Of a DNA stretch of 64,000 bases, positions 6,061-40,347 are shown piece after piece. A program made the position numbers and the translations under genes. Source of the stretch: an uncultured Saprospiraceae bacterium. GTDB taxonomy: Bacteria > Bacteroidota > Bacteroidia > Chitinophagales > Saprospiraceae. The notes beneath the pieces were generated by a model. That model made no database searches, was not told the DNA's origin, and saw only the letters and a list, made by a program, of their open reading frames with translations. The number at the start of each line of letters is the position of its first letter. The stretch's first letter is position 1. Where the stretch lies: the NCBI GenBank assembly GCA_937951685.1, contig CALFBG010000241.1:1-64000 (forward strand). Direction: 5' to 3'.

Positions 6061-6088
6061 ATTAATTAATCAGTGCCTATTAATTAAT
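6061..6088. repeat. Twin ATTAATTAAT palindromes at the oxidoreductase leader
   Basis: Two identical 10-base palindromes, ATTAATTAAT, sit at 6061-6070 and 6079-6088, 18 bases apart start to start. The second overlaps the ATG at 6087, the most upstream possible start of the oxidoreductase. This favours the ATG at 6123 as the real start and makes the pair a candidate operator or leader element. Confidence 0.35.
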
Positions 6089-6122
6089 GATAAAAAAATA
6101 TAAAAAAATTAAAAACTCAATC

Positions 6123-26800: not shown

Positions 26801-29800
26801 GCGTTATTGAAAGGAAATACGTTGTGTATTAGTAGTCCGGGCTTAAAAACTTTGAATGAGATCACTACTGAAATTAATGCTGGAAAGGTAAAAGTATTGT
26901 GGTTGACCGCAGGCCTTTTTCATCAGGCGGTAGCGACAAATCTTAGTCTTTTTGAAAATTTAGACTTCTTACTTTCAGGAGGAGATAGCATCCAAGCTCA
27001 AAGTATCAAGCAGTTATTAAAAGCACATCCCAACTTGGTTTTTATTAATGGTTATGGTCCTACGGAATCTACTACTTTTGCAACGATTAAGCGGATGGAT
27101 ACCGTAGCGGAAATCAATCATGCTGCTAACGATATTGGGAAGCCGATTTCAAATACTCAAGCTTATATTTTGGATAGGGCTACTTTGGCTTTATTACCGA
27201 AAGGAGTTGTCGGTGAACTTTGTTTGTCAGGAGATGGCTTGGCGAGAGCTTACCTTAATCAAGCAGCATTGACGGAAGAGAAGTTCGTAGCGCATCCATT
27301 TGTCGCTGGTAAGCGGATTTATAGAACGGGAGATTTAGCACGTTGGTTACCCAATGGAAATATTGATTTTATCGGTCGGAACGATCGACAAATTAAACTG
27401 CGTGGGTATCGGATCGAATTAGCCGAAATTGAAGCAACAGTAGAAACTTTCCCCTCGGTTCGGCAAGCAGTCGTCTTACCAAAGTTTAAAGAAAATGAAG
27501 GCGCCGTTCAACAGCTAGTGGCTTACGTACTACCTGAAAATGCAACTGAACTTGCTAGTTTTGTGGCGGAAGTACAGCTATACTTAAAAGAGCGATTACC
27601 CCGCTATATGCTTCCTAGTCAAATGATATTAGTGGAAGAATTTCCACTAAGCAAAAACGGAAAAATTGATTATCAAGCCCTACAAAAATTGAGTTCCTTC
27701 CAAAAGGAAGAAAAAGTATTTATTGCACCACGGACTGAATTCGAACTACAATTAGTTGAATTGTGGAAAGTAGCTCTAAGTCTTGATCATTTAAGCGTAG
27801 CGGACAACTTTTTTGAAATCGGCGGTCATTCTTTACTCGCTATAAAATTAGTATCTCAGATTCGAAATACTTTTCAGTTGGAAGTAGGAATCGAAGATTT
27901 ATTTAATCACCCAACGGTTGAAAGTCTGGCCAATCTATTGGAAACAGAGCCGTCTAAAAATCTCTTGCCTATATTTTCGGTAGAGGAACGACCATCTGCA
28001 ATCCCCTTATCCTTTGCGCAGGAGCGACTTTGGTTTGTAGATCAACTGCAAGGAAGCGTCGCGTATCATATTCCGCTAATCCTAAGTCTAACAGGAAACT
28101 TAAATCCAGTTGCGTTAACCAATGCATTTAGTACTTTGTTAGCCCGCCACGAAATTCTTAGAACCCGCATTGTAGTCAGAGCAGAAGATACCGTTCAGGA
28201 AGTACACGCTGCAAAAGACTGGCAGATGGAGTTGTTAAAAGAAGCGGATTTAGAACTAGAAATAGAACCATATATAGAAAAATTTATTGGTACAGCCTTT
28301 AATTTATCAGAAGATTTTCCCTTACGGGTAAACTTGATTGAAAGGCAACAAGAAAATCAATTTGTCTTAGCAATCGTTGTTCATCACATCGCTTCTGATG
28401 CTTGGTCGATTCCCATTTTCATGGAAGAATGTAAGGTTTTGTATGATAATTACTGTCGCAATCAAACGCCTAAATTATCAGCCTTAACGGCGCAATACGC
28501 AGATTATGCGATTTGGCAACGGAAAATAGCGGCACAAGGATTTTTTACAAGGCAACTAGCTTATTGGAAGGAACAATTACGGGCGAGTAAAAACTTAGCC
28601 TTCCCTACAGATTTTACAAGACCCGCAGCGCAAAGCCTAATGGGCGCGACGGTACAAATCACAATTGGCCAAGCCTTACAAACCAAATTGCAAAGATTCG
28701 CCGAAAGGCAGTCGGTAACTATGTTTACCTTACTACTGACAGGCTTTAAAACTTTACTATACAAATATACTCGTCAAGATGATATTCTTGTTGGTGTACC
28801 AGTGGCGGGGCGTACCACTCAAGCCGTAGAAGGATTGATCGGTTTCTTTGTGAATATGCTAGCCTTGCGTACTCAAATAACGGCAGGAATGTCTTTCGTT
28901 GACTTACTCCAAGCGGTTAAACAAACTAGCTTGTCTGCTTACGCCAATCAAATGGTTCCTTTTGAACAAGTCGTTGAGGCCTTGCAAGTTCCTCGCGATA
29001 TGAGTAGAACGCCTTTAGTACAAGTCTACTTTAATTTCTTAAAAGAAACGCCATCTTTCGCCTTACCAGAAATAGAAGTGCAAGATTTTTTTGGAGAAAC
29101 AAAATATGCAAAAACAGACTTAAATATTGCTATCGTCGAACGAGCAGAAAGTTTAGAAGTTGGCTTGATCTATTGTACGGCACTTTTCGAAGCGAGTACG
29201 ATGCAAGCTTTACTTGATCATTATAAAACGCTGCTCAGCCAACTCACGGAAGATACAATGGTTACAATTGACAATTTGAAACTACTCAACGCTGCAAAAG
29301 AGCAAGAAGTACTACAAATTACGCAAACAGCAAAAGTCAATTATCCCAAAGATAAAACGATCGTAGATCTATTTGCAGCGCAAGTTGCCCGTACACCGAA
29401 TCATCTGGCACTTAGTTTTGGGAAGGAAACAATGACCTATCGTCGCTTGGATGAGTTATCGAATCAATTAGCCCATTGCTTACTCGAAAAATCCGTCGAA
29501 CCTGAACGCTTAATTGCAATCTGTTTAGCACCTTCTTTCGAAATGATCGTCAGTATTTTAGCGGTTATTAAAGCAGGAGCAGCGTATGTGCCGATTGATC
29601 CAACTTACCCAGCGGAAAGAATTCAGTATACCATTACAGATGCGGGAGTGACAATGGTATTGGGGAATGAAACCAGTCCTAGGAGTTTGCAAGATGCAAA
29701 AGATCTTGATTTCATAAGGGTGGAAAGCGATTGGAAAAATTTCGAAAACTATACTGCTTCCGCACCGAATATCCGTATTGCGCCGACACATTTACTTTAC

Positions 29801-32800
29801 GTGATTTATACGTCAGGTTCCACCGGGAAACCGAAAGGTGTATTATTAGAACATCAAAATTTGGTGCGACTTTTTCATCATGATCAAAATTTATTTGATT
29901 TTAGGGAGAGTGACGTTTGGACTTTATTTCATTCCTTCTGTTTTGATTTTTCAGTTTGGGAAATGTATGGCGCACTTTTGTTTGGCGGACGACTCGTAAT
30001 TTTACCAAAAGATATTACCAAAGATCCCGTAGCGTTTTCTAATCTGTTGGTAAAAGAATCCGTCACGGTACTGAATCAAACACCGGGAGCTTTTTATGTA
30101 TTGGAAGAAGCTTTGCGTGCGTGTGAAGCCAAGCATCATTTGCGATACGTTATTTTTGGAGGAGAAGCATTACGACCCACTAAGCTAGCTGCTTGGAAAA
30201 AGGAATATCCACTTTGCCGTTTAATCAATATGTATGGAATTACGGAGACGACGGTACACGTAACGTATAAAGAAATTACATCGCTTGAAATTGAGATGAA
30301 TAGTAAAAGTATTGGAAAAGCTATTCCTACCTTGGATGGCTACATTCTTGATGCTGGACTCAATTTGTGTCCTGTGAAATTAGCAGGAGAATTACACGTA
30401 GCGGGAGCAGGTCTTGCCCGTGGTTACTTGCATCGTTCCGCATTAACGCAAGAAAAATTTATCCCAAATCCTTTTAGGAACGAATCGGATGCTCGCTTGT
30501 ATAAAACGGGTGATTTAGCGCGGTGGTTACCCAATGGAGAAATGGAATATTTAGGGAGAGTAGACGAACAAGTAAAAATCCGTGGTTATCGAATTGAGTT
30601 AGGCGAAATTACTGCAGTCGTGGAAGCTTCGCCGATGATTCTCCGAGCAGTTGTTTTAGCACAAATGCTATCCAAGGATATTTCGGAAAGCCAACAACTC
30701 GTCGTGTACTACGTTCCTACGGATGATTTTGAGCAGGATGGCTTACTGCAATATTTAGGAGCAAAGCTTCCGGATTATATGGTTCCGAGAAGATTCGTTG
30801 CCATTGCAGAAATACCACTAACGATCAATGGGAAACTGGATAAACAAGCCTTGCCTCCATTCGATCATGAGCAAGCAACGCAGCAAGTCGTAGCGGCGCG
30901 GAATGAAACGGAGCAAGTATTAGTGCAGCTTTGGCAAAACTTGCTAGGAATAAAAGAGATAGGAATCAACGATAACTTTTTTGAAATTGGTGGACATTCT
31001 CTACTCGCGGCAAGAGTCGTGACTGCGGTTCGAACACAATTACAGCGCGCAATTTCCATCAAAGATATATTTACTCATCCGACGATTGCGCTGTTGAGTG
31101 AAAGACTAAAAGTATTAGCAATAGCTGATAATCTAATGATTTCATTGGTGCCACGACCAGCTCAAATTCCGCTGTCTTACGCACAAGAACGCCTTTGGAT
31201 CATCGACCAATTAGGGGGAAGCGAGCAGTACCATATTCCTTATGTGTTGAAAATAAAAGGGCCGGTAGATTTAAACATTATCACTACGGCACTCCAAATG
31301 ATAATTGAGCGCCACGAGATATTACGAACCGTTTATAAAAATAATAAAGCAAAAGGGTACCAAGAAATTAGACCAGCAACAGATTGGAAATTAACGATTC
31401 AAGCGTTAGAGAAAGGGGAGAAAGAAAAAGATGCGATTGATCAAGTTATTCATCAAGCCTTTGATTTGTCGAGAGCATTTTCTTTACGAGCGACGATGAT
31501 TCAACGGTCTGCGGAAACGCAATTTTTAGTATTGGTATTACATCATATTGCGGCGGACGGATGGTCTTTGTCCATTTTGGTAAAAGAGTTTTTAGCAATT
31601 GTAGCTGCGTTAGAAGCAGGGCGATCCGTCAATTTGACACCGCTTTCTATTCAATATGCAGATTATGCAATTTGGCAAAAAACTTACTTGGTGGGCGATG
31701 CATTTGACGCAAGTCTTCAATACTGGCAAAATCAATTAACCGGCGTCGAACCACTTCAGTTGCCGCTCGATTTTCCCCGACCGAAGCAATTTAGTGCCGC
31801 TGGACAAACCTTAACTTTTACCATCAATAAAACCTTATCAGCGCAATTAGAAAGCCTAGCCTTACAGGAAAATGTGAGTTTGTTTATGTTGCTCTTAGCC
31901 ACGTACAAAGTACTATTGTATCGCTATACCGATCAACAGGATATTAGTGTCGGCACACCGATCGCGAATCGGAAACAAAGTCAACTTGAACCGCTGATCG
32001 GCTTCTTTTTGAATACCTTAGTTTTGAGAACGGAAGTAACTGGACAAGCGCATTTTTCCAGTTTTCTCCAAGCCGTAAAAGCGACTAGCTTAGCAGCATT
32101 TGATCATCAGGAAGTTCCTTTTGAAGAATTGGTAGAACGAATCCCGCAGCCGAGGGGTTTGCATCAAAGTCCATTATTCCAAGTGATGTTCGTTTTTCAA
32201 AATAATCCTACGGTACCGGAATTACAGTTGGAGAATACGGAAATTACCGTTGAACCGACAAACTACAACGTTGCAAAGTACGAACTAACCTTCAACGTTG
32301 CACCTACGCCAGAAGGTATTCGGGTAAATATTGAATATGCCACAGACTTATTTTTACCATCGAGTATTCATCGGATGATGGGACATTACGAGCGCCTGTT
32401 AGAGAGCGTTGTCAATCAAATCGACCAGCCCATTGCTACCTTACCAATGCTTACGACCGCCGAGACGAGACAGATTTTTACGGCGTTTAAAGGAAAATCA
32501 CAAGCACTTCCTGCGGGAAAAACGGTCATTGATGAATTTGAAAATCAAGTAATCAAAAGACCGGCACAAATCGCATTGGCTTTTGCACAAAATACCTTGA
32601 GTTACCAACAATTAAACGCTAAAGTCAACCAATTGGCAAACTATCTGCGCAAGCAGGGCGTCGGGACACAAAGCTTGGTAGGAATCGTATTGGATCGTTC
32701 TTTTGAAATGATCATCTCCGTATTGGCAATTTTGAAAACAGGTGCGGCTTACGTACCGATTGACCCCGAATATCCCGCTGATCGTATTGCATATATTTTA

Positions 32801-34330
32801 GAAAATGCGGAAACAAATTTTGTAATTAGTCAGCGCGCTTATCAAAGTAAAGTTGAAAATGTTGAGCAAAGAAAATGCTTTTATCTACCAGAATTAGAAG
32901 CAATAATTGATGGAGAATCGACGGAGAATCTAGCCTCGCCCATTGATCCGGAAAGTCTGATGTACGTTATTTATACCTCTGGTTCTACGGGTAAACCCAA
33001 AGGCGTAATGGTGCGGCATCTTGGAATTGTCAACTTAGTGATTTCCCAAATTGAAACTTTTGGTATTACCGAGGCAGATCGAGTTTTACAATTTGCTTCT
33101 TTGTCATTCGACGCTTCGGTCAGTGAAATCTTCACCAGTTTGTATAGTGGAGCTTGTTTGGTACTCATTGACAAAACGACCATTTTACAATCCGATAAAT
33201 TTATTGCTTACCTAAAAACGGAACAAGTTAACATTGCTACGTTGCCACCAGCTTATTTGAATGTACTTGATTGGAGTCAGTTGGATTTTATGAAAACAAT
33301 CGTTTCTGCCGGAGAAGCAATTGATAAAAAGCAAGCTTTGTATTGCGCCCAATTTTTGGAACGCTTTGTAAATGGCTATGGTCCTACGGAAACTAGTGTT
33401 TGCGCAGCAATGTACCAAGTTGATCCCCAGACGGATGCACAGCGAGACATACCGATTGGACGCGCAATGACGAATACGAGTATTTATCTGTTAGACGATC
33501 ATTTACAATTGGTACCCATTAATAAAGTTGGGGAGATTTGCATAACGGGGATTTCGTTAGCGATGGGATATTGGAAAAATGAAAAACTAACGCAAGAGCA
33601 ATTTATCCCAAATCCTTTTGCACCGCAAGAGAAAATGTATCGTACCGGTGATCTTGGAAAATGGCTTCCCGATGGAAGTATTCTTTATCTCGGTAGGAAA
33701 GACAATCAGGTAAAGATTAACGGTTATCGAATAGAGCTAGGCGAAATTGAAAAAGTATTGCAAAGGCAATTGGAAGTAGAGCAGGCGGTGGTAATCGCAA
33801 AGACCATTCAAGGACAAAAAGAATTAGTCGCTTACTTGTTAGCGCCGGAGTCTTTGGATTATTTTATGCTCCGCAAACAGCTCGCTCAGCAACTTCCCAA
33901 TTACATGGTGCCCGCTCGGTACGTTTCCTTAACTAGCTTTCCCATTACGCCTAACGGAAAAGTCGACCTCAAGGCTTTAGCCAACCGGAAAGTGGAAAAA
34001 ATGGAAACGGGGATGGATTACATCGCGCCGCGCAATGATTTAGAAAAACAACTCTGTCAACTTTGGGCTGGAATTTTAAATCTAGATCCAAATCAGATTA
34101 GTATCGAAGAAAACTTTTTTGACTTAGGTGGGAATAGTATAAAAATGATTCAGATGAATCAACGATTGAAAGACGAACTGGAGATAGAAATGACGGTTGT
34201 CGCTTTATTCGAACATAGTTCGATTCGATTGATTAGCGACTTTTTACAAGGAGCAGCACCCAACGAAACAGACCACGAAGCTGCGGTCGATTTATTTGAA
34301 CAAAATTTGAACTTATTTAACGAAGATTAA
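8849..34330 (+). CDS. Giant eight-module NRPS, (C-A-T)x8
   Basis: 8493 residues, eight C-A-T modules, no epimerization, methyltransferase or thioesterase domain. Carrier serines lie near residues 1028, 2085, 3142, 4218, 5265, 6325, 7381 and 8428. The first C domain (motif RYHHLITDGFGF, residue ~152) resembles EntF-type or starter C domains and has no docking domain before it, so this protein may start a chain. The other seven are LCL-like (HHIAxDxW). A codes read by eye: 1 DILQLSLIWK (Gly-like); 2 DAEHVAEITK and 3 DAENVAEITK (unassigned, near-twins); 4 DLEHVSMIIK (unassigned); 5 DLFNLMLTYK (Ala-like); 6 DAFWLSGTFK (Val-like); 7 DFWNVFMVHK (Thr-like); 8 DASTISGVCK (Tyr/Phe-like). The last carrier differs from the rest (LGGNSIKM). 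The protein ends in a tag, DLFEQNLNLFNED, nearly repeated on the next protein. The next gene begins one base after the stop. Confidence 0.97.
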   Translation: MNTNSLPEATGPVPVPDLKCYPLHLAQQEVYFDQSIHPERTYYNVGGYIVITGRLDKDCFKYCLKTLANFFDVLRLQFDFKGVRPQCSFLDKFSSTTITEIDFSQAKNPSQAAQAWMQDRFNHPYDLAEAQLYENIILKLGAEEHWWFMRYHHLITDGFGFSIIMQHIAQQYSRLTTTNNSLQPLTYPSYKEAIQQSSNYLQTIAYQQDAKYWQARFTEIPHPLLFRSQQSETPSSEIGGMLSLVLTEKQRSAFEKLNEQLGTSLQQLSLAALTIYFGQTTSQAEMVFGVPIHKRSNRTLRKTAGMFTGVMPFKAKYSPNQTVEALIRAIKKQQRSDYRHQNYPISHLNRALKLFGQGRAQLFEVEVLYDYLNFELSFAGLTAKSNFIASEEKHSPLEIRWCDYGSAHPLVLKLSYQTAYFSQAAAALLAKRFIFILEQFSTQLAEASANISLLPTAERNLLLHEFNPAATTYPQDKTFIDLFETQASLTPNNVALRSGSKILSYQTLSDKVNQVARYLQKQGIQPQARIGLCLARTEEMLICLLAIQKLGAVYIPIDPSYPADRINFILEDAKLKCFLIDEALSATFRPQTKASIFGTATIFAESQQESTTKLAVSTNLDQLVYVIYTSGSTGKPKGVMVKHRGLVNFLIAMQQEVCPVASKPKRFLALTTYSFDIAYLELYLPLIQGAEILLVDRVTATDGYALQKILAATPVDYLQATPATWQLLLACNWTNKENATLLSGGEAISEKLKNTLTNLSAQPVWNLYGPTETTIWSTSKRLQAGERVTIGKPIANTQVYVLSLHNVTSCHVPNTLAPIGSIGELAIGGDGLAAGYLYRPNLTREKFIPNPFGKTKDALIYRTGDLVRWLTNGELEYVGRVDDQVKIRGHRIELGEIESVLRKAKLVENAVVIAKQTATHQQALALYYLPLATSKVVTAVELRNYLQSHLPSYMVPAYLTELTEFPLTANGKIDKLALAKIETTLVRTQVYTAARFPLEVQLVELWRRILELPKVGIHDNFFELGGHSLLASQLLVAIRETLQVELSFKNIFDYPTIAELAHFVVRQGAVSTLPSLSVQERPDRIPLSFAQERLWFIDQLEGSTAYHMTFVQELSGDLDLTVLTASFRTIVARHVPLRTVCYEEGGKVYQRLLAAEDWSLDEADHTKTPPADLASIVQAELTKAFDLTKDFPLRVNLFRLAENKFLCLFIIHHIAADGWSNTILLEELVALYQGKLQQKAVNLPTLSLQYLDYALWQRKYLTETFLSDKIQYWETQLSGLETLNLPTDFERPPVQSTVGKQYQLSVATSLNVELAALAQRENATKFMVLLAAFKILLHKYTGQEDICVGTPVANRNQAGVSELIGLFVNSLALRSTVKANDNFLEILQLVKATTLAAYDHQEVPFEKIVNRVVAQRDRSRSPLFQVLFAYESGLNVEALDLSSLLLNQKTSGADKVATAYALPSSKFDLSFTLTEEKQGKGLKLTIEYATALFAEATIARMAKHFEQILTAVFTKPQQKIAKLNWLSAQELDQVLVRFNDTHRVVEPETVIDLFERQAALYPDRIAVSFEETQLSYQAVAEQSNQLAQQLRALGAQPETLIALCLDRSIEMVIAILAVLKSGAAYVPIAPDYPLHRIEYLLADTATTIVLTQTQYLSLFVKQKNLKLLDILDAEATQAFPTTNLSEAPTEKSLAYLIYTSGSTGQAKGVAVEHSALYNEISFFVERFGVQPTDKHALMASYVFDASLEQIFVPLCAGATVVIMAKETLLDAQALAKTVSQQKITHLHATPSLLETLPPHAYDALRRVCAGGEVCTTALADAWSPYVDFYNEYGPTETTITSSYEHYQAEEHTRKNQLPIGKPIGNTQFYILDEEQQFLPIGVTGELYIGGAGLARGYWNQPALTAERFIVSPFDNTKKLYRTGDLACWLSDGRLAFKGRKDKQIKLRGFRIELGEIEANLKVFPGVAQAVALLAGTKTQSKQLVAYVSQVSNTTAFGVDDILNYLKKRLPAYMVPTRLIVVENIPLTKSGKVDELALLQQAKLEQATETFTLPQTNLERSLAKVWEEVLQCKPIGIHQNFFELGGHSLLIMQVVAAVRELNQLTIRIEDIFNYPTIYELANHLGTGIERPSLPAITKVTSATNLVLSFEQERLWFTDQLEGSTQYHLPFVQVLSPDLNRKYLAEAFQEIVHRHEVLRTVFYESEGIVYQKVLSADTWQLTYEEIQATRSEELQAIVDTTIAEAYDLSKDHALRVKLLRLPSGEYLMILVLHHIAADGWSSPILLGELVSLYRAKEGKLSSELLPVEIQYADFAAWQRHYFKETVLAGELAYWSKQLRGLEALALSTDYARPAVQSFAGDQFQLKIKAEVAEQIAALAKRVGASNYIFLLAAFKVLLYKYTGQSDFAVGSPIANRTQAEVKNLIGFFVNTLTLRTEINPELSFLDFVKLVKSTAVAAYEHQTVPFDKVVEQVVMQRDRSRSPLFQVMFAYETGLAVADLDLSQALLGQTKPSFPELSVHLQRSKFDLTFTLSEQGEEEGWLLTIDYATDLWLPTTIQRMAQHFQKLLTAIISLPIQTLTEIELLDATEKRVLQVDFNQTAAAYADKISLVELFEQTAAAYPQRTALSLGTEELSYQSLEDRANQLAHYLVSIGTKKEMLICLALDRSFEMIIAMLATMKAGAAYVPIEPDLPAARIQYLLEDTQSKLVLTTKKYQAVFSGYENVEVVYLEELALASNFPSSALVEKPAIHDLAYLIYTSGSTGKPKGVMVEHGSVVNELCAFAKIFEVDISDKHLLLASYVFDASVEQIFVPLTNGAQVVLLSKTDLLDGVRLADIIEHKNVTHVNCTPSLLQTIPVKAYPALKRVCAGGEFCPVSLAEAWSPYVRFFNEYGPTETTITALYYCYDPAAPPISGALPIGKPIANTQVYILDTQQNIVPLGVVGELYIGGKGLTRGYLNRPSLTAEKFVPSPFDATEKLYRTGDLACWLANGTVEFKGRIDDQVKVRGYRIELGEVETILVQSSLVEKAVVLVKKNTLGHPMLVAYFIPTKAFTAAPEANLRKYLQTHLPDYMVPSLLVPLASFPLTATGKLDKKYLSNLALLGEQGQNYVAPRNAVEEALTQIWMKILKLEQLSIRANFFEMGGHSLLVTKLIAAIRNALQVNISIKEVFEQPTVEALAAYILQLETVASSENLAEVKKEARNSFSPVLASKERLTEIPASFSQERLWLIDQMGGSTHYHIPFVQYFLEAIDYDILEEAFQRIINRHEVLRTVFYEVAGTVYQKILPADTWTMRKPSTSKSLTPATLQPLLAAEVQEAFDLTKDHPIRVSIRKLSAQTSVLVVVLHHIATDAWSSAIFLTELEALYQTIKEKRATKLSALAIQYADYALWERRNYEAGFLNPQLSYWKNQLKGLETLVLPTDFTRPAKQSFAGAVHRFTIKKELAVALDQLATKTGSTKFMLLLAIFKIVLYKYTGQVDIGVGVPIANRTQASVDRLIGFFVNTLVIRSRLNPKESFETLLKAIKATSLAAFDHQEIPFEKVVAALVTESDQSPASLFQVFFSYEKKSTEKKAALRLNENASPVGIEEQEWQEYFEQLTTAAVAKFDLSLAVEEIETTLYFNFEYCTALFLPATIVRLEKHFVNLLSAVALAPNTRLEQLEMIDVIEEKKLVQTFGKTPFDYPQTATLVSLFETQVKKNPTKIALEWEGLTLSYQGLDDRANELAAVLLSQNVQPEDLVCICLARSIEMIVSIFAVLKAGAAYVPIDPNYPSERINYLLEDTQSNLVLTTQAYKGYFKNAAEVICLDDENSKERAKAARIKVQTKVVVQPAHLAYVMYTSGSTGLPKGVQIEHGALVNEIWCLHHFFGLDTEERILQTGNFVFDLSVEQIFSALLFGGTLVLPRQEDLLHQGKLIELLEQTKITHLHATPSFLENLPARSYPALKVVMSGGEACSVALAKAWAPYVKFFNMYGPTETCIIATGYQFDPEHSNASGKMPIGKPIGNFELFIVDQSMQIVPIGVPGELYIGGKGLARAYWNRAALTQEKFINSPFGANQRLYKTGDIVSWLPDGNILFHGRKDDQVKIRGQRVELGEIETKIRNTTLVEACAVVLTKEENRQYLIAYVVANQGFDQVKLKTILQGSLPDYMIPTVFIELAQLPLNTSGKLDRKALPAIDLATLKAASYLSPRNAIEKALVSIWENLLQLSPIGIQDNFFELGGHSLLATKVVAAIEQNLQKSIGIKTFFDYPTIAALADHLKATTEKVVVPALHSVLRPQHIPLSFSQERLWFIDQLQGSTNYHIPYLETVDSNIDRAILAKAFQALINRHEILRTVYYSVDGQPYQTILPKDEWELHIEKRSKFKNEEEKQAVLIERSSQAFDLSQDHTLRANLFEFPDGTGLLLIVLHHIAADGWSSPIFLRELRAYYTAIAAEQIDVLPALPVQYADFALWQRAFLSEEVLAQKLTYWETQLRAAAPLDLPTDFPRPQLQSIRGATRSMILPQALTEQMTRVAKGAGVTSFMFCLTVLKILLHKYTGQTDITVGSPIANRRPAGVENLIGLFVNTLALRSDLSDNPSFSALLTQLRTTTLTAYEHQAVPFEKIVDRVVPQRDRSRSPLFQIFLSYEATGETAERLFPRLNPAEKGETSISTPTSKFDLSFHFQQNSKEITLSVTYCSDLFLPATIERMMGHYQNLLSAVVQQPQTKLAALTMLSVEEDQAIRFAFNDTTVPYDEVLDLVALFAKQVAFQPTAIAVSYASQELSYQSLDEQSNQFAHYLAKKAALKGGLIAVCMNREINLLVVLWGILKSGNTYVPLDPNYPKERIDYIIADAKVALTICDQFNVALFGKQATADILVFEKLKATVAKLPIIPLSFEIAKAQTAYIIYTSGSTGKPKGVMITHGNLQAFLHWAIAEFAKSAFEVVFAATSICFDLSIFELFYTLCAGKRIRLLKDASNIPSYLAKEKSILLNTVPSVVKTLLQTQADLSNVTVLNMAGEVIPPYVQNKLNFEQMELRNLYGPSEDTTYSTVYHLQKEERILIGRPIQNTQVYIVDQALNLLPVGVKGELCLSGAGVSKGYLYRPQLTAKKFLPNPFDTGNAPILYRTGDFAKWLPDGTIDFLGRMDSQVKLRGYRIELGEVAQALKQHVLVQDAIVLLQTDETGYEKLVAYAIAATTATATQIQADLKTQLPSYLVPAAIIFLAAFPLTPNGKIDKNALPTLLSSKDQKTLNQPLQDETEIAVSKIWSTLLRRSDFRRADDFFELGGHSLLAMRVVAAIQKELAITVEVKDIFAYPTIARLARFLREEASSIEISTITSSPRPAKIPLSFSQERLWFVDELMGSLPYHLPSVYRLEGTIHPEILAEAFRLLLRRHEVLRTTYQLTEGEIHQCIQPVAAVENWSLVTEVEVKHSANIENQLQEVMNQPFDLTKDFMLRVNLYKVAAETYILLLVVHHIASDGWSSRIIVKEMLAFYEALKKGSTAVLPELPIQYADYALWQRTYLQEQVLTQKLDFWEKQLANAATLKLPTDFPLPQKRSNKGSHVDFIIGEALTAKIKAFGQQEGMSLFMVLLTAFKIVLHRYSGQKDICIGVPVANRGQVILDNLIGFFVNIIVIRSALTQTMTAREVLSQVKATSLAAFQHQDAPFEKVISKLATQPDARRHPLVQAAFGLQNNEAAPAIVLDDLVVKAEKVDRQFSKFDLNVSILEREGGLLIDVEYSTDLFVPTTIDNLFQHYENLLTALVEQPNTAIGALKLLSATEEKELLETFNATDFAYPHQQTIVDIFEAQVVAQPKHIALQIGTDTMSYEALNAKANQLARHLKVTYDLKLEDFVACLLPRSVEAIIAILAILKTGAAYVPISLEDPLDRKRFILTDTQAKVLITNFGEVAELDMIQVPTFCIDVTLDILETATENLEDIQLQPANLAYSMYTSGSTGKAKAVLTEHRAILRLIYNEQFDFLNPSTVLYQYAPLAFDAATFEIWGALLKGNTLCISSPGLKTLNEITTEINAGKVKVLWLTAGLFHQAVATNLSLFENLDFLLSGGDSIQAQSIKQLLKAHPNLVFINGYGPTESTTFATIKRMDTVAEINHAANDIGKPISNTQAYILDRATLALLPKGVVGELCLSGDGLARAYLNQAALTEEKFVAHPFVAGKRIYRTGDLARWLPNGNIDFIGRNDRQIKLRGYRIELAEIEATVETFPSVRQAVVLPKFKENEGAVQQLVAYVLPENATELASFVAEVQLYLKERLPRYMLPSQMILVEEFPLSKNGKIDYQALQKLSSFQKEEKVFIAPRTEFELQLVELWKVALSLDHLSVADNFFEIGGHSLLAIKLVSQIRNTFQLEVGIEDLFNHPTVESLANLLETEPSKNLLPIFSVEERPSAIPLSFAQERLWFVDQLQGSVAYHIPLILSLTGNLNPVALTNAFSTLLARHEILRTRIVVRAEDTVQEVHAAKDWQMELLKEADLELEIEPYIEKFIGTAFNLSEDFPLRVNLIERQQENQFVLAIVVHHIASDAWSIPIFMEECKVLYDNYCRNQTPKLSALTAQYADYAIWQRKIAAQGFFTRQLAYWKEQLRASKNLAFPTDFTRPAAQSLMGATVQITIGQALQTKLQRFAERQSVTMFTLLLTGFKTLLYKYTRQDDILVGVPVAGRTTQAVEGLIGFFVNMLALRTQITAGMSFVDLLQAVKQTSLSAYANQMVPFEQVVEALQVPRDMSRTPLVQVYFNFLKETPSFALPEIEVQDFFGETKYAKTDLNIAIVERAESLEVGLIYCTALFEASTMQALLDHYKTLLSQLTEDTMVTIDNLKLLNAAKEQEVLQITQTAKVNYPKDKTIVDLFAAQVARTPNHLALSFGKETMTYRRLDELSNQLAHCLLEKSVEPERLIAICLAPSFEMIVSILAVIKAGAAYVPIDPTYPAERIQYTITDAGVTMVLGNETSPRSLQDAKDLDFIRVESDWKNFENYTASAPNIRIAPTHLLYVIYTSGSTGKPKGVLLEHQNLVRLFHHDQNLFDFRESDVWTLFHSFCFDFSVWEMYGALLFGGRLVILPKDITKDPVAFSNLLVKESVTVLNQTPGAFYVLEEALRACEAKHHLRYVIFGGEALRPTKLAAWKKEYPLCRLINMYGITETTVHVTYKEITSLEIEMNSKSIGKAIPTLDGYILDAGLNLCPVKLAGELHVAGAGLARGYLHRSALTQEKFIPNPFRNESDARLYKTGDLARWLPNGEMEYLGRVDEQVKIRGYRIELGEITAVVEASPMILRAVVLAQMLSKDISESQQLVVYYVPTDDFEQDGLLQYLGAKLPDYMVPRRFVAIAEIPLTINGKLDKQALPPFDHEQATQQVVAARNETEQVLVQLWQNLLGIKEIGINDNFFEIGGHSLLAARVVTAVRTQLQRAISIKDIFTHPTIALLSERLKVLAIADNLMISLVPRPAQIPLSYAQERLWIIDQLGGSEQYHIPYVLKIKGPVDLNIITTALQMIIERHEILRTVYKNNKAKGYQEIRPATDWKLTIQALEKGEKEKDAIDQVIHQAFDLSRAFSLRATMIQRSAETQFLVLVLHHIAADGWSLSILVKEFLAIVAALEAGRSVNLTPLSIQYADYAIWQKTYLVGDAFDASLQYWQNQLTGVEPLQLPLDFPRPKQFSAAGQTLTFTINKTLSAQLESLALQENVSLFMLLLATYKVLLYRYTDQQDISVGTPIANRKQSQLEPLIGFFLNTLVLRTEVTGQAHFSSFLQAVKATSLAAFDHQEVPFEELVERIPQPRGLHQSPLFQVMFVFQNNPTVPELQLENTEITVEPTNYNVAKYELTFNVAPTPEGIRVNIEYATDLFLPSSIHRMMGHYERLLESVVNQIDQPIATLPMLTTAETRQIFTAFKGKSQALPAGKTVIDEFENQVIKRPAQIALAFAQNTLSYQQLNAKVNQLANYLRKQGVGTQSLVGIVLDRSFEMIISVLAILKTGAAYVPIDPEYPADRIAYILENAETNFVISQRAYQSKVENVEQRKCFYLPELEAIIDGESTENLASPIDPESLMYVIYTSGSTGKPKGVMVRHLGIVNLVISQIETFGITEADRVLQFASLSFDASVSEIFTSLYSGACLVLIDKTTILQSDKFIAYLKTEQVNIATLPPAYLNVLDWSQLDFMKTIVSAGEAIDKKQALYCAQFLERFVNGYGPTETSVCAAMYQVDPQTDAQRDIPIGRAMTNTSIYLLDDHLQLVPINKVGEICITGISLAMGYWKNEKLTQEQFIPNPFAPQEKMYRTGDLGKWLPDGSILYLGRKDNQVKINGYRIELGEIEKVLQRQLEVEQAVVIAKTIQGQKELVAYLLAPESLDYFMLRKQLAQQLPNYMVPARYVSLTSFPITPNGKVDLKALANRKVEKMETGMDYIAPRNDLEKQLCQLWAGILNLDPNQISIEENFFDLGGNSIKMIQMNQRLKDELEIEMTVVALFEHSSIRLISDFLQGAAPNETDHEAAVDLFEQNLNLFNED
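34289..34327 (+). other. C-terminal docking-like tag DLFEQNLNLFNED
   Basis: The last 13 residues of the giant NRPS match 11 of 13 residues at the end of the next protein (37272-37310). The tag follows an acidic linker after the last carrier domain, which is where NRPS/PKS C-terminal docking peptides sit. The partner is not identified; the PKS protein encoded directly downstream is the obvious candidate. Confidence 0.5.
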
Positions 34331-34331
34331 T

Positions 34332-37313
34332 ATGAGCGAGCAAGAAAAAATAAATAAAACGGATGCTTTAATTGAAAAATCAATAGCAGCCTTTTCTAAA
34401 CAATTCAACGCTACGGAGCAAGCTTACGCTAAAGACGAGCAGGTCATAGCTCTTTTTGAAAATCAAGTTCGGCAACAGCCTCAAGCTACAGCTTTGGTAT
34501 TTGATGGTCAAGATTTAAACTATCAAAGCCTTCAACAGCAGGTGAATGACTTGGCAACAGCTTTACGTATAAAAGGAGTAGGACGAGCAACCACGATCGG
34601 ACTTTGCTTGCGACGAAACCTACAACTGCCAATCACCGTTTTGGCTATTTTAAAAACGGGAGCCACTTGCTTACCGATTACCACGGAGACTCCGATTCGT
34701 CAACTAGACTTTTTGTGCGAATCGGCGGAGATGGATTTTTTATTGGTAGAAAAAGTTACGCGTACGCTGTTTGGCAAAAGTGATGCGTTGAGTGTACTAG
34801 AACTTGAAGATTTATCACCAACAGATACGGTAGTTCCTGATGATACAAATTGGCTTAGCGCAAAAACGGAAGGAGAGGAGGAATTACTGTTATATTATAG
34901 TTTAACACAACAACGAAATGCGCTAACCAATGCGAATGTACAAAACCTTTTCTTGGGCTTGAATCAAAAGTTCCCTCCGAGTGAAAAACAAGAAACTTGG
35001 CTTGCACAACACGCAATAGATACGCAAGAAAGTATTATTGACTTACTTTGGAATTTATGTCGAGGAAGTAAAATCATTCTTCAACCCGCTGCAAACGTAC
35101 CCCTTAATGGAACGAAGCCAATTAACTGCAGCTTATTTTATTTTGCGGCGCAGGAGGAAATAACGACCGAAAATAAGTACCGTTTGCTATTAGAAGGCGC
35201 CAAGTTTGCGGATGAAAATGACTTAGCGGCGATTTGGGTGCCAGAGCGACATTTTCATAGTTTCGGGGATCAATTTCCCAATCCTTCGATCGCGGCCGCG
35301 GCAGTGGCTGTAGTTACAAAAAAAATAAAACTGCGGTCGGGAAGTGTCGTACTTCCGCTTCACGACCCCATTCGCGTAGCGGAAGAGTGGGCAATGGTCG
35401 ATCATCTTTCAGAGGGGCGCGTAGAAATTTCTTTTGCCTCTGGTTGGAATCCTAATGATTTTATTTTTGCCCCCGAAGCGTACCAGCAACGGCATCAAGT
35501 TATGTGTGATAAATTAAAAATGGTGCATCAATTGTGGCGGGGAGAAAGTTGTACACGCACGAATGGTAAAGGCGAAAAGATAAGCCTTACGATTCATCCA
35601 AAACCGGTTCAGACAGAATTGCCAACTTGGATTACCTCCGGGGGAAGTCCCGAGACGTTTCGATATGCGGGTTCTATTGGCGCTAATATTTTAACTTTAT
35701 TATGGGGACAACCGAAGGAAGATCTCAAAGCGAAGATCGAAATTTATCGCACCGCATTAGCAAAACATGGTTTCGATCCGGAGCGCGGGCAAGTAGCCGT
35801 GATGCTCCATAGCTTTATTGGGGAGAATTTTGAGGAAGTAAAACCTACCGTTAAAGAACCTTTAAAAAACTATATTCGCCACTCCATTGCACTCATGCAA
35901 GGCAAGTCGAACGACGGATTAGATGAAGAAGTTGAAAAATTGGTGGACGCGAGTTTTACGCATCATTATCATACCAATGGCTTGTTTGGAACACCCGAAA
36001 CTTGTTTGGCTTATTTACAAGAATTGACTTTACTCGGCGTCAATGAAATAGCTTGTTTAATTGATTTTGGCATTTCAAATGATATTACACTTGCCAATTT
36101 ACCACAGCTTAAGAAATTGGAAGATTTAGTAAAAAGAACAGCTGCGCAACAAAGTCTATTAGCCGAACGCTCCATCAAAAATTGGACGACACAAGCATTA
36201 GTGCAACAGCATCAAGTTACCCATTTTTATACAACAGTCGCTAGTTTAGCGCCTTGGCAAAATGCAATCGAAGATCATAGTTGGCTCCGCAAGCTCACCA
36301 CGCTAATTGTAAGTGGTGAAAGTTTATCAGAACCTACCAGAGAATGGATAAGCCAACACGGCGCAAGACAAAGCTATTTCCTTTACGGAATATCCGAGCG
36401 CTCCACGGTGAATATGATTGAGGGCTTAGCGGCTGCAAAAGAAAACTGTCCTTGTCAACTATTACCCAATCAACGCGGCTATATTTTGAATGATCAACAA
36501 GAATTGGCAACTATTGGAGACATCGGGGATTTATGGATTGGAGGTGATGGCGTAACTTTTTCGGAGAAAGGAGAACGAGAAAACATTTCTTTTGATCTTG
36601 GAAATGGTACAAAAGAACAACTGTATAAAACCGCTACTCAAGCTAAATTTTTGCCCGACGGAACGCTACAACTTATTGCTTCCAATATAAATTCAGTCTA
36701 TCGACAAGGAAGAAAAATTGATTTAGCCCTTATCCAGAAAACTTTAAATCAGCATGTGCAAGTAAACGCCGCTTTGGTAACTGCTCCCGCACTTGAATCC
36801 GGAGCGGAGCGTATCGTAGCTTACTTTACGAGTTCCGAAAACGTGACGACGCAGCAACTTCGTTTTTTCTTGAATTACCATTTGCCGACTTACTACTTAC
36901 CCACGCTATTCATAAAAGTAGATCAGTTACCACGCACGCCGATATCAACTGAAAAAGATAGCGATAAAGCTTTACCCTTAGGAACGGCTTACCTCGCCCC
37001 TAGAAATGATACGGAAATTGAATTTACTACCCTATGGAGTGAAATATTACAAATGTCCAGCGAGAAAATAGGTATTGATGATTCCTTTTTCGCCTTAGGT
37101 GCTAGTACGAGCAATGTCTCTTCGCTTCAGCGTAGCCTAGCAAAAAACAAAGACTGGCGCATTGAAAAAAATATCATTTATCAAAAAGATACCATTAGAG
37201 GTTTATCTACGCTTTACCTCAAAGAAATGGCAGCAAGCGAAGTAAGCATTCCTGAAAAAGAAGACAGCGTAGACTTATTCGAAAATAACTTAAATCTATT
37301 TAACGAAGCATAA
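34332..37313 (+). CDS. Luciferase-like monooxygenase inside a degenerate A-T didomain
   Basis: 993 residues. Residues ~35-263 are the N-terminal part of an adenylation domain with recognisable A1/A2 (LAILKTGATCLPI). A3, normally YTSGSTG, is replaced by LYYSLTQQRN, and the substrate-anchoring Asp at the A4 site aligns with Gln. Residues ~264-602 are a flavin-dependent luciferase-like monooxygenase of the type found in NRPS/PKS proteins (VPERHFHSFG, GSVVLPLHDPIRVAEEW, ISFASGWNP). Residues ~617-875 resume the A domain, with A5 YGPTE read as YGISE, A7 YRTGD as YKTAT, and A8 and A10 eroded. The carrier domain (residues ~890-950) reads LGASTSN where LGGHSL is expected, which puts Thr926 at the phosphopantetheine site. 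The protein should therefore not activate an amino acid; the LLM probably hydroxylates a chain held by a neighbouring protein. One base separates it from each flanking gene. Confidence 0.93.
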   Translation: MSEQEKINKTDALIEKSIAAFSKQFNATEQAYAKDEQVIALFENQVRQQPQATALVFDGQDLNYQSLQQQVNDLATALRIKGVGRATTIGLCLRRNLQLPITVLAILKTGATCLPITTETPIRQLDFLCESAEMDFLLVEKVTRTLFGKSDALSVLELEDLSPTDTVVPDDTNWLSAKTEGEEELLLYYSLTQQRNALTNANVQNLFLGLNQKFPPSEKQETWLAQHAIDTQESIIDLLWNLCRGSKIILQPAANVPLNGTKPINCSLFYFAAQEEITTENKYRLLLEGAKFADENDLAAIWVPERHFHSFGDQFPNPSIAAAAVAVVTKKIKLRSGSVVLPLHDPIRVAEEWAMVDHLSEGRVEISFASGWNPNDFIFAPEAYQQRHQVMCDKLKMVHQLWRGESCTRTNGKGEKISLTIHPKPVQTELPTWITSGGSPETFRYAGSIGANILTLLWGQPKEDLKAKIEIYRTALAKHGFDPERGQVAVMLHSFIGENFEEVKPTVKEPLKNYIRHSIALMQGKSNDGLDEEVEKLVDASFTHHYHTNGLFGTPETCLAYLQELTLLGVNEIACLIDFGISNDITLANLPQLKKLEDLVKRTAAQQSLLAERSIKNWTTQALVQQHQVTHFYTTVASLAPWQNAIEDHSWLRKLTTLIVSGESLSEPTREWISQHGARQSYFLYGISERSTVNMIEGLAAAKENCPCQLLPNQRGYILNDQQELATIGDIGDLWIGGDGVTFSEKGERENISFDLGNGTKEQLYKTATQAKFLPDGTLQLIASNINSVYRQGRKIDLALIQKTLNQHVQVNAALVTAPALESGAERIVAYFTSSENVTTQQLRFFLNYHLPTYYLPTLFIKVDQLPRTPISTEKDSDKALPLGTAYLAPRNDTEIEFTTLWSEILQMSSEKIGIDDSFFALGASTSNVSSLQRSLAKNKDWRIEKNIIYQKDTIRGLSTLYLKEMAASEVSIPEKEDSVDLFENNLNLFNEA
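35121..36135 (+). other. LLM (bacterial luciferase-like, flavin-dependent) domain insert
   Basis: Starts at INCSLFYFAAQEE and ends near KKLEDLVK. The order of blocks, EGAKFADENDLAAIWVPERHF, then SGSVVLPLHDP, then FASGWNPNDF, then TSGGSPETFRYAG, follows the family of natural-product LLM domains (MupA-like; NCBI TIGR04020 type). It interrupts the A domain between the A4 and A5 regions: the DLLWNLCRGSKIIL block precedes it and VTHFYTTVASL plus LIVSGESL follow it. The expected chemistry is FMNH2/O2-dependent hydroxylation of a carrier-bound chain; position and substrate are unknown. Confidence 0.88.
37272..37310 (+). other. C-terminal docking-like tag DLFENNLNLFNEA
   Basis: Near copy of the tag that ends the giant NRPS (11 of 13 residues identical). 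It is kept although the carrier domain just before it has lost its serine. This suggests the tag serves to place the monooxygenase beside the same partner rather than to pass on a chain. Confidence 0.5.
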
Positions 37314-37314
37314 T

Positions 37315-40300
37315 ATGAAAAATTCAGAAAGAAAGTTAACTGGTTTTGAAATTGCCATCATCGGTATTGGCAGTAGTTTTCCCCAATCAAAAGATACCCG
37401 TAGCTTTTGGAAAAACTTAACGGAAGGAAAAGAACTCATCAGCTTTTATTCGAAAGAAGAATTAGCTGAACGAGGGATCGCGAAGGAAGTTTACCAACAA
37501 AAAAATTATGTTCCTGCCAAAGGAGAATTAAAGGCTAAAGATTATTTCGATGCAGCTTTCTTTAAGTACTTGCCAGAGGAAGCTAAATTTATGGATCCAC
37601 AAACGAGGCTATTTCATCAGGTCGTTTGGCAAGCCTTGGAAGACGGTGCAATCTCGTGGGACAAAGCCGCGAATAAGATTGGATTGTATGCTGGTGCGAG
37701 TACTAATTTGCTTTGGAAAAATTATACGAGTCTCAGTCAAGCTGAATTTGTAGATGGTTACACCTTAGGCTTGCTTAGTGAAAAGGATTTTATGCCAACG
37801 TTGATTGCCCACAAGTTAGGGCTAAAAGGGCCTGCTATCTCCGTCAATACGGCTTGTTCTACTTCTTTAGTTGCGGTACACATGGCAACACGTGCCTTAT
37901 TAATGGGAGAGTGTAATTTAGCGGTTGCGGGAGGCGTTTCTTTGTCGAGTAGTACGGCTTTGGGCTATTTTTATTCGGAAGGAATGATTTATGCGCCCGA
38001 CGGACATTGCCGGAGTTTTGATATTAAAGGAGAAGGTACAATTACTGGAGAAGGAGCAGGTGCAGTCGTTCTGAAACGATTAAAAGATGCAATGCAAGAT
38101 GGCGATCATATTTACGCAGTCATCAAAGGTTCTGCCCTCAATAATGACGGTGCGCGCAAAGTTGGCTTTACCGCTCCTAGCGTCCAAGGTCAAATTGATT
38201 GTATCAAAATGGCACAGAAAATTAGCAAAGTTACTCCCGATACAATTTCTTACGTTGAAGCGCACGGAACGGCAACAAAATTAGGCGATCCAATCGAAGT
38301 AGAAGCACTAAATCGAGCTTTTAATAATGAACTTAATAAGTCTTGCTGGTTAGGTTCTGTAAAATCTAATTTAGGTCACTTAGATGCTGCCGCAGGAATC
38401 GCAGGGCTCATCAAAGTAGCCTTGTCATTGGAACAAAAACAATTACCACCTAGTATTAATTTTATCAAAGAAAATCCACAAATCCCTTTCGATCAAGGAC
38501 CTTTTCAAGTCGTAGATCGCTTGCGAGATTGGGAAACAAAAGGAGATGATCCCCGTCGCGCCGGGTTGAGCTCTTTCGGCGTTGGTGGTACGAATGCACA
38601 TATTATTTTAGAGGAAGCACCGTCGGTTGTGTCAAGGATTACGAAGTCCCATTACCAAATTTTTCCCATCTCAGCGATGCATCCGGAAGCAGGACAAGCG
38701 TACTGGAAGGTGTTGGAAGCATTTGTAATGGAGGAAGAGCAGCTTAATTTATCCGAAGCGGCATTTACCTTACAAACGGGTCGCAAGCGTTTAGCCTATA
38801 AAGATTTTATTGTTGCAAAAGATCGATCGGATTTGTTGGCTCGTCTACAAGCTAAAAATGAAAAAACAACAAACAAGGATTTTGTCAAACAAGAAAGTGC
38901 AAGGGTAGTCTTTATGTTTACCGGACAAGGTAGTCAATACTTCCGTATGGCTTTTGATTTATACGAACAAGAAGCTGCTTTTAAATTGGAATTGGACAAA
39001 GGCTTAACCGCTTTGCAAAAAGCAACGGGAGAAGATTACGCAGCGATTTTATTCCATCATACGACCGACGAAACTAAAATCAATCAGACGGAATATACGC
39101 AACCTTTACTGTTTGTTTTAGAATATGCTCTTGCGCAATATTTGCTACAATTAGGCCTCCAGCCAGATGCGATGATTGGACACAGCTTAGGAGAATATGT
39201 AGCGGCGTGTTTGGCTGGCGTTTTTTCTTTTGAAGATGGCATACAGATCATTTTAAAACGCGCCTCCTTAATTTCAAGTTTACCCAAAGGAGCGATGTTG
39301 GGTATTGCTGCGGAACCTAAAAAAGTAGAAACGTACTTAAATGAGAACCTTTCGATGGCGGCTATTAATGCACCAACTCAGTGCGTCGTTTCTGGAAAAA
39401 CAGCGGATATCGAAGCTTTAGCGACTACTTTAAAAGCAGCGGATATTTTGTGCAAACGCTTGCAAACTTCACACGCTTTCCATTCCGCCATGATGGATGA
39501 TATTTTGAAAGCCTTTGAAAACTTTTTACATAGAATGGATTTTCATCCACCGACGATTCCTTACAGCTCGAACCTTACGGGAACTTTAATCAAAAAGGAA
39601 GAAGCTACGGACGCGAAGTATTGGACTAGGCACCTGCGGGAAACGATTCTTTTCTCACAAGGAATCCAAAACTTATTTACCGATACGGATACCGTTTTTA
39701 TAGAAGTTGGTCCGGGGAGTGTTTTGACAAAGTTAGCCAAACAAAACAAAACCAGTACTGCAAAATTTAAAACGCTTAGTCTCCTCCGTAGCCCTAAAAT
39801 GGAAATAGACGATCAACAATATTTTTTAGAAAAATTAGCAACCCTTTGGCAATACGGTTTACAGCCTAATTGGGAAGCTTACTACTCGGAGGCAAAGCCC
39901 AGAAAAATCTCCTTGCCAACGTATTGCTTTCGCCAGCAATTCGTCAAAGCAACGGTCAACCTTGCAGAAGATTTGAATTTTGCGGCGGGAACTGAACTCG
40001 GTGCAGCGATGGCTACTGTGAAAAGTGGAACTTTTGCTACGCCACAATCGTCGACTACGGTTAGTGCGGAAGAAACTACGCCAAGTACCTTAGCAACGGA
40101 AATGTTAGGTGTTTGGAAAAACTTTTTTGGGAATGACGAAATTGATTTAGATGCTGACTTTTTTGAGTTGGGTGGAGATTCCCTCAAGGCAATGTCAATG
40201 ATTAATACGCTGCACAAAAAGTTTAACGTAGAAATTCCCGTCATGTATTTTATGGAAAAACCGACGATCATGGATATTATCGAAAAGATCGAAAATACCC

Positions 40301-40347
40301 ATTGGGTAAATGCAGCACAAACGGCGAAGAATAAAATAACCATTTGA
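37315..40347 (+). CDS. Type I PKS module, KS-AT-ACP
   Basis: 1010 residues. The ketosynthase has the full Cys-His-His set: Cys181 in NTACSTS, His317 in HGTATKLGDP, His355 in NLGH. The acyltransferase has Ser624 in GHSLGE and the HAFH motif from residue 720, which indicates malonyl-CoA rather than methylmalonyl-CoA. After the LPTYCF linker and a low-complexity stretch rich in Ser/Thr/Ala, the acyl carrier has Ser956 in LGGDSLK. No ketoreductase, dehydratase, enoylreductase or aminotransferase is present, so the module should leave a beta-keto unit unless a trans enzyme acts. It follows the LLM gene after one base and is the last gene of that tight operon. The C-terminus (TAKNKITI) lacks the acidic tail found on the neighbouring NRPSs, so how the chain leaves is unclear. 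Function is well supported; the acyl donor is inferred to be the giant NRPS. Confidence 0.96.
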   Translation: MKNSERKLTGFEIAIIGIGSSFPQSKDTRSFWKNLTEGKELISFYSKEELAERGIAKEVYQQKNYVPAKGELKAKDYFDAAFFKYLPEEAKFMDPQTRLFHQVVWQALEDGAISWDKAANKIGLYAGASTNLLWKNYTSLSQAEFVDGYTLGLLSEKDFMPTLIAHKLGLKGPAISVNTACSTSLVAVHMATRALLMGECNLAVAGGVSLSSSTALGYFYSEGMIYAPDGHCRSFDIKGEGTITGEGAGAVVLKRLKDAMQDGDHIYAVIKGSALNNDGARKVGFTAPSVQGQIDCIKMAQKISKVTPDTISYVEAHGTATKLGDPIEVEALNRAFNNELNKSCWLGSVKSNLGHLDAAAGIAGLIKVALSLEQKQLPPSINFIKENPQIPFDQGPFQVVDRLRDWETKGDDPRRAGLSSFGVGGTNAHIILEEAPSVVSRITKSHYQIFPISAMHPEAGQAYWKVLEAFVMEEEQLNLSEAAFTLQTGRKRLAYKDFIVAKDRSDLLARLQAKNEKTTNKDFVKQESARVVFMFTGQGSQYFRMAFDLYEQEAAFKLELDKGLTALQKATGEDYAAILFHHTTDETKINQTEYTQPLLFVLEYALAQYLLQLGLQPDAMIGHSLGEYVAACLAGVFSFEDGIQIILKRASLISSLPKGAMLGIAAEPKKVETYLNENLSMAAINAPTQCVVSGKTADIEALATTLKAADILCKRLQTSHAFHSAMMDDILKAFENFLHRMDFHPPTIPYSSNLTGTLIKKEEATDAKYWTRHLRETILFSQGIQNLFTDTDTVFIEVGPGSVLTKLAKQNKTSTAKFKTLSLLRSPKMEIDDQQYFLEKLATLWQYGLQPNWEAYYSEAKPRKISLPTYCFRQQFVKATVNLAEDLNFAAGTELGAAMATVKSGTFATPQSSTTVSAEETTPSTLATEMLGVWKNFFGNDEIDLDADFFELGGDSLKAMSMINTLHKKFNVEIPVMYFMEKPTIMDIIEKIENTHWVNAAQTAKNKITI

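Follow-up and report, generated by a model that had tools for sequence, protein, structure and literature searches.

A degenerate NRPS module in a Saprospiraceae bacterium as a possible carrier of a trans-acting luciferase-like monooxygenase

We analyzed a 64,000-nucleotide stretch of DNA (the window) from an uncultured Saprospiraceae bacterium (GenBank assembly GCA_937951685.1, contig CALFBG010000241.1, positions 1 to 64,000), with a focus on the product of one gene, which we call X. The nonribosomal peptide synthetase (NRPS) and polyketide synthase (PKS) genes of the window lie on one strand and encode N1, X, P and two further NRPSs. X is encoded by a single open frame (34332..37313, +) of 993 amino acids, in which a monooxygenase interrupts what appears to be a degenerate NRPS module. 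The upstream NRPS, N1 (8849..34330, +), has eight A domains and is the probable donor of a chain to the PKS. The downstream gene product, P (37315..40347, +), is a PKS whose KS, AT and ACP domains carry their active-site motifs; no ketoreductase (KR) was found among its Pfam matches, and we propose it as the substrate carrier. A single base separates the gene for X from each of these neighbors. Published systems are cited below as excerpts of the respective papers describe them.

Architecture of X and the state of its motifs

Four parts precede the C-terminal tail of X. The N-terminal part of an adenylation (A) domain (residues 1-262; 34332..35117, +) is followed by a luciferase-like monooxygenase (LLM) of the MupA/Atu3671 type (residues 267-596; 35130..36119, +), the C-terminal part of the A domain (residues 604-888; 36141..36995, +) and a peptidyl carrier protein (PCP) domain (residues 890-962; 36999..37217, +). 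The LLM scores 452 bits against TIGR04020 (cut-off 244.45). The initial annotation of this DNA had placed it between motifs A4 and A5, and our alignments agree; the relatives of X carry it at the same site. The A flanks score 112.5 bits against PF00501 (cut-off 29.9) and the carrier domain 21.0 bits against PF00550 (cut-off 20.8). The amino-acid adenylation model TIGR01733 gives X 125.8 bits, below its cut-off of 317.4.

Relatives were taken from a scan of one genome per species, and the best 79 of 404 were used. All 79 have the LLM and both A flanks in a single frame by BLAST. X, these relatives and 15 A domains of the window were then placed in one joint alignment. X has YYSLTQQRNA where the A3 motif should read YTSGSTGxPKG, Gln232 at the position of the substrate-anchoring Asp of A4, and TAT instead of TGD at A7; the A8 pattern R..D.Q.K..G.R is lost. 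All four motifs are intact in 79/79 relatives and in all 15 of the window's A domains, and X lacks every one of them.

A5 and A10 had also been described as eroded, and on these two motifs our results differ. The A5 glutamate is kept in X (E689, in YGISE), as it is in 78 of the 79 relatives, the exception (L048) having an undetermined residue there. An alignment of A3 to A10 with LLM-bearing relatives, which the initial annotation had suggested, confirmed that X has lost the P-loop and placed K875 at the A10 lysine. The same placement was obtained in a separate profile alignment. The loop has two extra residues before K875 and a predicted local distance difference test score (pLDDT) below 50. 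We regard A10 as altered and not clearly lost, K875 probably being its lysine. Judged by its motifs, the A domain of X is very probably dead. X shares the site of insertion with known interrupted A domains, which can hold auxiliary enzymes between A4 and A5 among other places (PMC8097286), and by motif appears to lack the working adenylation function beside the guest.

The carrier domain and the region before the A domain also depart from the usual module, and neither change was part of the initial annotation. The carrier motif LGGxS reads LGAST in X, with the serine replaced by Thr926 and another serine adjoining at 925. The carrier serine is present in 77/79 relatives by alignment; L072 and L080 are misaligned at this site, and their own frames contain LGGHS and LGGTS, respectively. 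These two also seem to be doubly interrupted, with some 200-450 extra residues before A10. Another A domain that is seemingly doubly interrupted (L004:817-3996) has an LLM after A4 and, after A8, a stretch that by eye resembles a methyltransferase.

The A domain of X is preceded by no more than some 30 residues. In the 74/79 relatives with a frame that no contig end truncates, at least 445 residues come before it. BLAST detected a condensation (C) domain just before the A domain in 38/79 relatives, including the four nearest to X by LLM, and X has neither a C domain nor a formyltransferase there. X is not alone in lacking a C domain: none was detected by BLAST in 41/79 relatives, and all six of these that were tested have a formyltransferase. 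In those six (L051, L057, L064, L079, L086 and L098, one of them also with a sub-threshold C fragment), the formyltransferase stands before an A(Gly-like)-LLM-A-PCP module, and they appear to represent a widespread formyl-initiated line that carries a nested monooxygenase.

Unequal conservation of the monooxygenase and its flanks

The LLM and the domains around it have diverged to very different extents. Among the columns that at least 95% of relatives conserve, those retained in X number 68/74 for the LLM, 14/36 and 23/50 for the N- and C-terminal A halves, and 4/6 for the PCP. The lowest values among the relatives are 70/76 for the LLM, 33/37 and 44/51 for the A halves, and 2/6 for the PCP (L080, by misalignment). 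Sequence identity gave the same contrast within a set of 15 Bacteroidota-type loci, chosen by record title. Median LLM identity was 56.9% between X and these relatives and 56.7% among the relatives themselves. For the A halves the corresponding medians were 28.2% vs. 42.9% and 25.4% vs. 46.2%, and for the PCP 26.9% vs. 37.3%.

Trees were built from 28 of the 79 relatives, the flank tree additionally including 14 of the window's A domains. The terminal branch of X is ordinary in the LLM tree (0.40; median 0.39) and very long in the flank tree (2.33; median 0.64; next longest 1.11), where the mean path from X to relatives is 3.63, as opposed to 2.06 among relatives. The LLM of X looks intact, and in the LLM tree it groups with L043 (Mucilaginibacter), among Bacteroidota. 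Insertion of an LLM into a copy of the neighboring A8 domain of N1 was considered as an origin for X and is not supported, given this position by L043 and an LLM site that matches that of the relatives. The flank tree, with X on its very long branch, decides nothing on this point.

It could be argued that X is a dying relic, a wholly unused module that has yet to be lost: the carrier serine is gone, as are most of the catalytic residues in the A domain, and no ortholog was found in the searches described below. However, the frame is open over 993 codons, and when we simulated neutral decay of the L043 flank to 32% identity, each of the 300 runs accumulated at least nine stops (mean 17.9). The unequal terminal branches and a C-terminal tail conserved at the protein level through synonymous change (see below) likewise argue against a module under no selection, and we consider a relic improbable. 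An assembly or sequencing artifact is also unlikely in view of the 993 open codons, the one-base gene junctions and the codon-position GC content. The latter resembles that of the neighbors in both A halves and the LLM, and departs from it in the PCP-plus-tail segment (first-position GC 0.41 vs. 0.49-0.52).

Where at least 95% of relatives have a hydrophobic residue, X has one in 50/56 columns of the N-terminal A half, 45/55 of the C-terminal half and 17/19 of the PCP. In mostly polar columns the counts of hydrophobic residues in X were 15/99, 29/144 and 5/35, respectively. An AlphaFold2 model of X, with an alignment built from 45 of the 79 relatives, had a mean pLDDT of 81.7, compared with 87.3 for the live relative L043, and nearly the same order of elements. 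It matched the A domain PheA (1amu) with a Z score of 40.1 over 399 residues (root-mean-square deviation 2.7), a full predicted A fold, and the PuwE Ox domain (6ket) with a Z score of 43.2 over 334 residues (root-mean-square deviation 2.9). The suggestion that the flanks are degenerate yet full length and under selection for structure is supported by the open frame, codon periodicity, hydrophobic columns and predicted fold; taken together, the flanks look constrained for structure.

The largest drops in model confidence in X are at the P-loop stretch (residues 161-200, block means of 63, 55, 63 and 65 vs. 85, 90, 81 and 84 in L043) and at the A10 block (42 vs. 79). This bears on whether the A domain was re-purposed for another ligand or chemistry through the remaining Glu689 and Lys875. 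E689, Y685, G686, K875 and the overall fold are indeed kept. The P-loop, the A7 Asp, the A8 Arg and Asp and the carrier serine were nevertheless lost together, and the stretches that lose modeled confidence relative to live L043 include the P-loop and A10. A new activity of the A domain seems to us very improbable.

A proposed role beside the polyketide synthase

X ends in a C-terminal tail, VDLFENNLNLFNEA (37269..37310, +), that closely resembles that of N1, VDLFEQNLNLFNED (34286..34327, +); the initial annotation had not noted this likeness. The common part is VDLFE[QN]NLNLFNE. Over VDLFExNLNLFNE, 12/13 residues are identical between the two proteins, and 7 of those 12 codons differ synonymously, which points to an old, constrained motif and not to a recent copy. 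The C-termini of N0 and N2 differ from it; the N-terminus of N2 has a sub-threshold TubC_N match (20.5 bits of 26). In seven Bacteroidota relatives (L035, L036, L037, L038, L041, L042 and L045), the LLM protein precedes a KS protein and has a C-terminal tail resembling NEMEDVDDLIDFMNNV. Docking of short linear motifs at a C-terminus on β-hairpin domains is on record (PMC9113145). By its sequence, the tail of X may be a docking motif that plugs X into a neighbor. X had been called a free-standing protein; it is a separate ORF, although the tail shared with N1 and the one-base spacing on both sides show that it is not simply so.

The enzymes related to the LLM have two described jobs. One is to α-hydroxylate the glycine that the host module carries (PMC11342130, PMC10204066), and the other is to α-hydroxylate PKS-made chains, as in puwainaphycin (PMC4219810), where this step is assigned to the Ox domain of PuwE, and mupirocin (PMC10952193). 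MupA, of the mupirocin pathway, acts in trans and requires an ACP-bound β-keto thioester, with no turnover of the β-hydroxy form (PMC10952193). X is a separate ORF beside a KS-AT-ACP protein in which no KR was detected, so a β-keto thioester would stand next to it. Assuming that X has lost the ability to load glycine, the LLM acts on another carrier or not at all. By analogy, the ACP of P would be the nearest carrier that fits chemically. Among the relatives, the LLM module is followed by a KS as the next extending domain in 36/79 and by a C domain in 16/79; none was seen within reach in 27/79.

We therefore favor, with some confidence, the interpretation of X as an NRPS pseudo-module from which the monooxygenase acts in trans, the likeliest reaction being α-hydroxylation of the β-ketoacyl chain on P. 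This agrees with the description of X in the initial annotation as a trans-acting hydroxylase dressed as an NRPS module. X would descend from an A(Gly-like)-LLM-A-PCP module that most likely had a C domain as well. In the lineage of X, the domain before A would have been lost and amino-acid activation and the carrier arm would have died, in an order that may have differed from this one. Selection would still retain the monooxygenase together with its supporting A-domain body and the C-terminal tail. N1 would pass its chain to P, and the tail would bring X to this NRPS/PKS junction, presumably through a docking partner there. The LLM would receive reduced flavin mononucleotide (FMN) from a reductase encoded elsewhere and hydroxylate the α carbon of a carrier-bound chain, most likely the β-ketoacyl-ACP of P.

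Several observations weigh against this interpretation. Across all 79 relatives, the LLM of X is itself somewhat divergent, with a median identity of 48.8%, compared with 55.5% among the relatives and 49.0% for the lowest of them; the mean LLM tree path is 1.47 from X to relatives and 1.32 among relatives, and 6/74 conserved LLM columns are lost in X. A weaker measure of hydrophobic constraint, which follows the single V/I/L/M/F/W positions of L043, gave 119/160 = 0.74 for X, a value that the highest of the neutral runs also reached (neutral mean 0.66; seven live domains 0.81-0.87), and does not decide the matter. The fold of the X model is in part a product of the underlying alignment, which consists of live relatives. 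In L034, L039, L040 and L043, the nearest LLM relatives, the next extending domain is a C domain and not a KS. Finally, no ortholog of X was found when residues 604-993 were searched against 398 genomes of the family, the best match by E-value outside its own genome having 33% identity.

TIGR04020, the second probe for an ortholog, gave matches over the cut-off in 3/395 genomes of the phylum set, 4/398 of the family set and 5/396 of the order set, which overlap. In these, G399 and G1027 are live by motif, G574 is live as far as its contig goes, G206 (L004) has live A motifs and G416 has other architectures; this classification covers all matches but the long one of G245 and the masked G877 (L158). 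G416, of the same family, has two other LLM hosts side by side: AMP-binding (DIP2/FAAL-like)-LLM-ACP (L153:2781-6101, -) and LLM-DH-KR-ACP (L152:16050-19670, -). Among plasmid records, 25 cover at least 80% of X in one place.

The same pseudo-module could have a different substrate, with the LLM acting in trans on an aminoacyl or peptidyl chain on a PCP of one of the cluster's NRPSs. The monooxygenases inside the glycine A domains of the myxothiazol, melithiazol and solanimycin lines hydroxylate the glycine α carbon (PMC11342130, PMC10204066). The C domains that follow the LLM module in the nearest relatives of X make a PCP substrate more possible. The host A domains of the relatives have the specificity code DILx[LM]GM[IV]WK in most rows (position 278 is misaligned in some rows and was not used), and N1A1 and N2A3 in the window read DILxLGLIWK. 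We call such codes Gly-like on the basis of what we take to be the glycine specificity code. Yet N1A8, in the module that adjoins X, does not have a Gly-like code, and the tail common to the donor NRPS, together with the place of X before a PKS, points to the PKS junction. We think a PCP substrate unlikely, though it is the alternative that we take most seriously.

Assuming that X does act at the PKS junction, a more specific arrangement can be envisaged. N1 and X, with the same docking tail, might occupy two equivalent sides of one homodimeric PKS, such that the chain arrives by one tail and the hydroxylase by the other. Retention of the dead A-PCP body would then be explained by its holding the monooxygenase in place above the carrier protein of the PKS. 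We offer this picture tentatively and hold it to be doubtful. If true, a whole NRPS module would have been turned into an oxygenase holder.

Other features of the cluster were noted in passing. Identical specificity codes recur in the window (8849-53068): DAELCGEITK in N1A2 and N1A3, DLFVNALTYK in N1A5 and N2A1, and DAFLLGGTFK in N0A1 and N1A6. From these repeats, the peptide probably contains residues that are used twice. In N2, the C domain that comes first and would receive the product of the PKS has HHIIGDD (41105-41125) in place of the HHxxxDG or DA of the listed C domains. A 539-amino-acid flavin/NAD(P)-type oxidoreductase (Pyr_redox_3) is encoded between two NRPS genes at 6087-7706.

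Relation to known systems

Each element of X has a counterpart. FMN-type monooxygenases lie inside Gly-like A domains in the myxothiazol and melithiazol lines and in SolF of solanimycin (PMC11342130, PMC10204066); their host A domain activates an amino acid and the carrier works, whereas X, by motifs, has lost both functions. MupA, OocM and CalD belong to the same LLM family, by the name of TIGR04020, and act at a junction on an ACP-bound β-keto chain (PMC10952193). They are described as trans enzymes that are encoded apart from the PKS and work beside a non-elongating KS0, whereas in X the enzyme sits within an entire NRPS module that is very probably dead. The Ox domain of PuwE (6ket) is the closest match to the LLM of X in the PDB by both sequence and structure, at 44-46% identity, and is not nested in an A domain, being flanked by PKS and NRPS modules within one protein (PMC4219810).

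Retention of a dead NRPS domain is also known, from the X domains of glycopeptide NRPSs, which serve as oxygenase platforms, and from an inactive A domain in the albicidin line (PMC8949500). The glycopeptide X domains, however, are described as dead C domains that recruit separate P450s, and the albicidin A domain as complemented in trans (PMC8949500). The words degenerate or inactive A domain also occur in papers on fungal siderophore NRPSs (PMC2644324, PMC10192304). In the open-licence literature we found no report of a module in which the A and PCP functions are gone and a guest monooxygenase is conserved. Interrupted A domains, dead NRPS platforms and trans α-hydroxylases are thus each known, and it is their combination in X that is unreported in that literature.

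Enzymes nested in A domains raise the question of whether guest and host must work together. X offers a natural experiment, in which the host has seemingly lost its chemistry and its carrier and the guest has kept its conserved residues. For genome mining it is a warning, since a prediction based on the number of A domains or modules would overshoot by one residue. An active guest would mean that the monooxygenase uses a carrier outside its own module and that an A domain can be a pure scaffold. In that case a tail may suffice to position a modifying enzyme where an NRPS meets a PKS, and this would be a useful part for assembly-line engineering.

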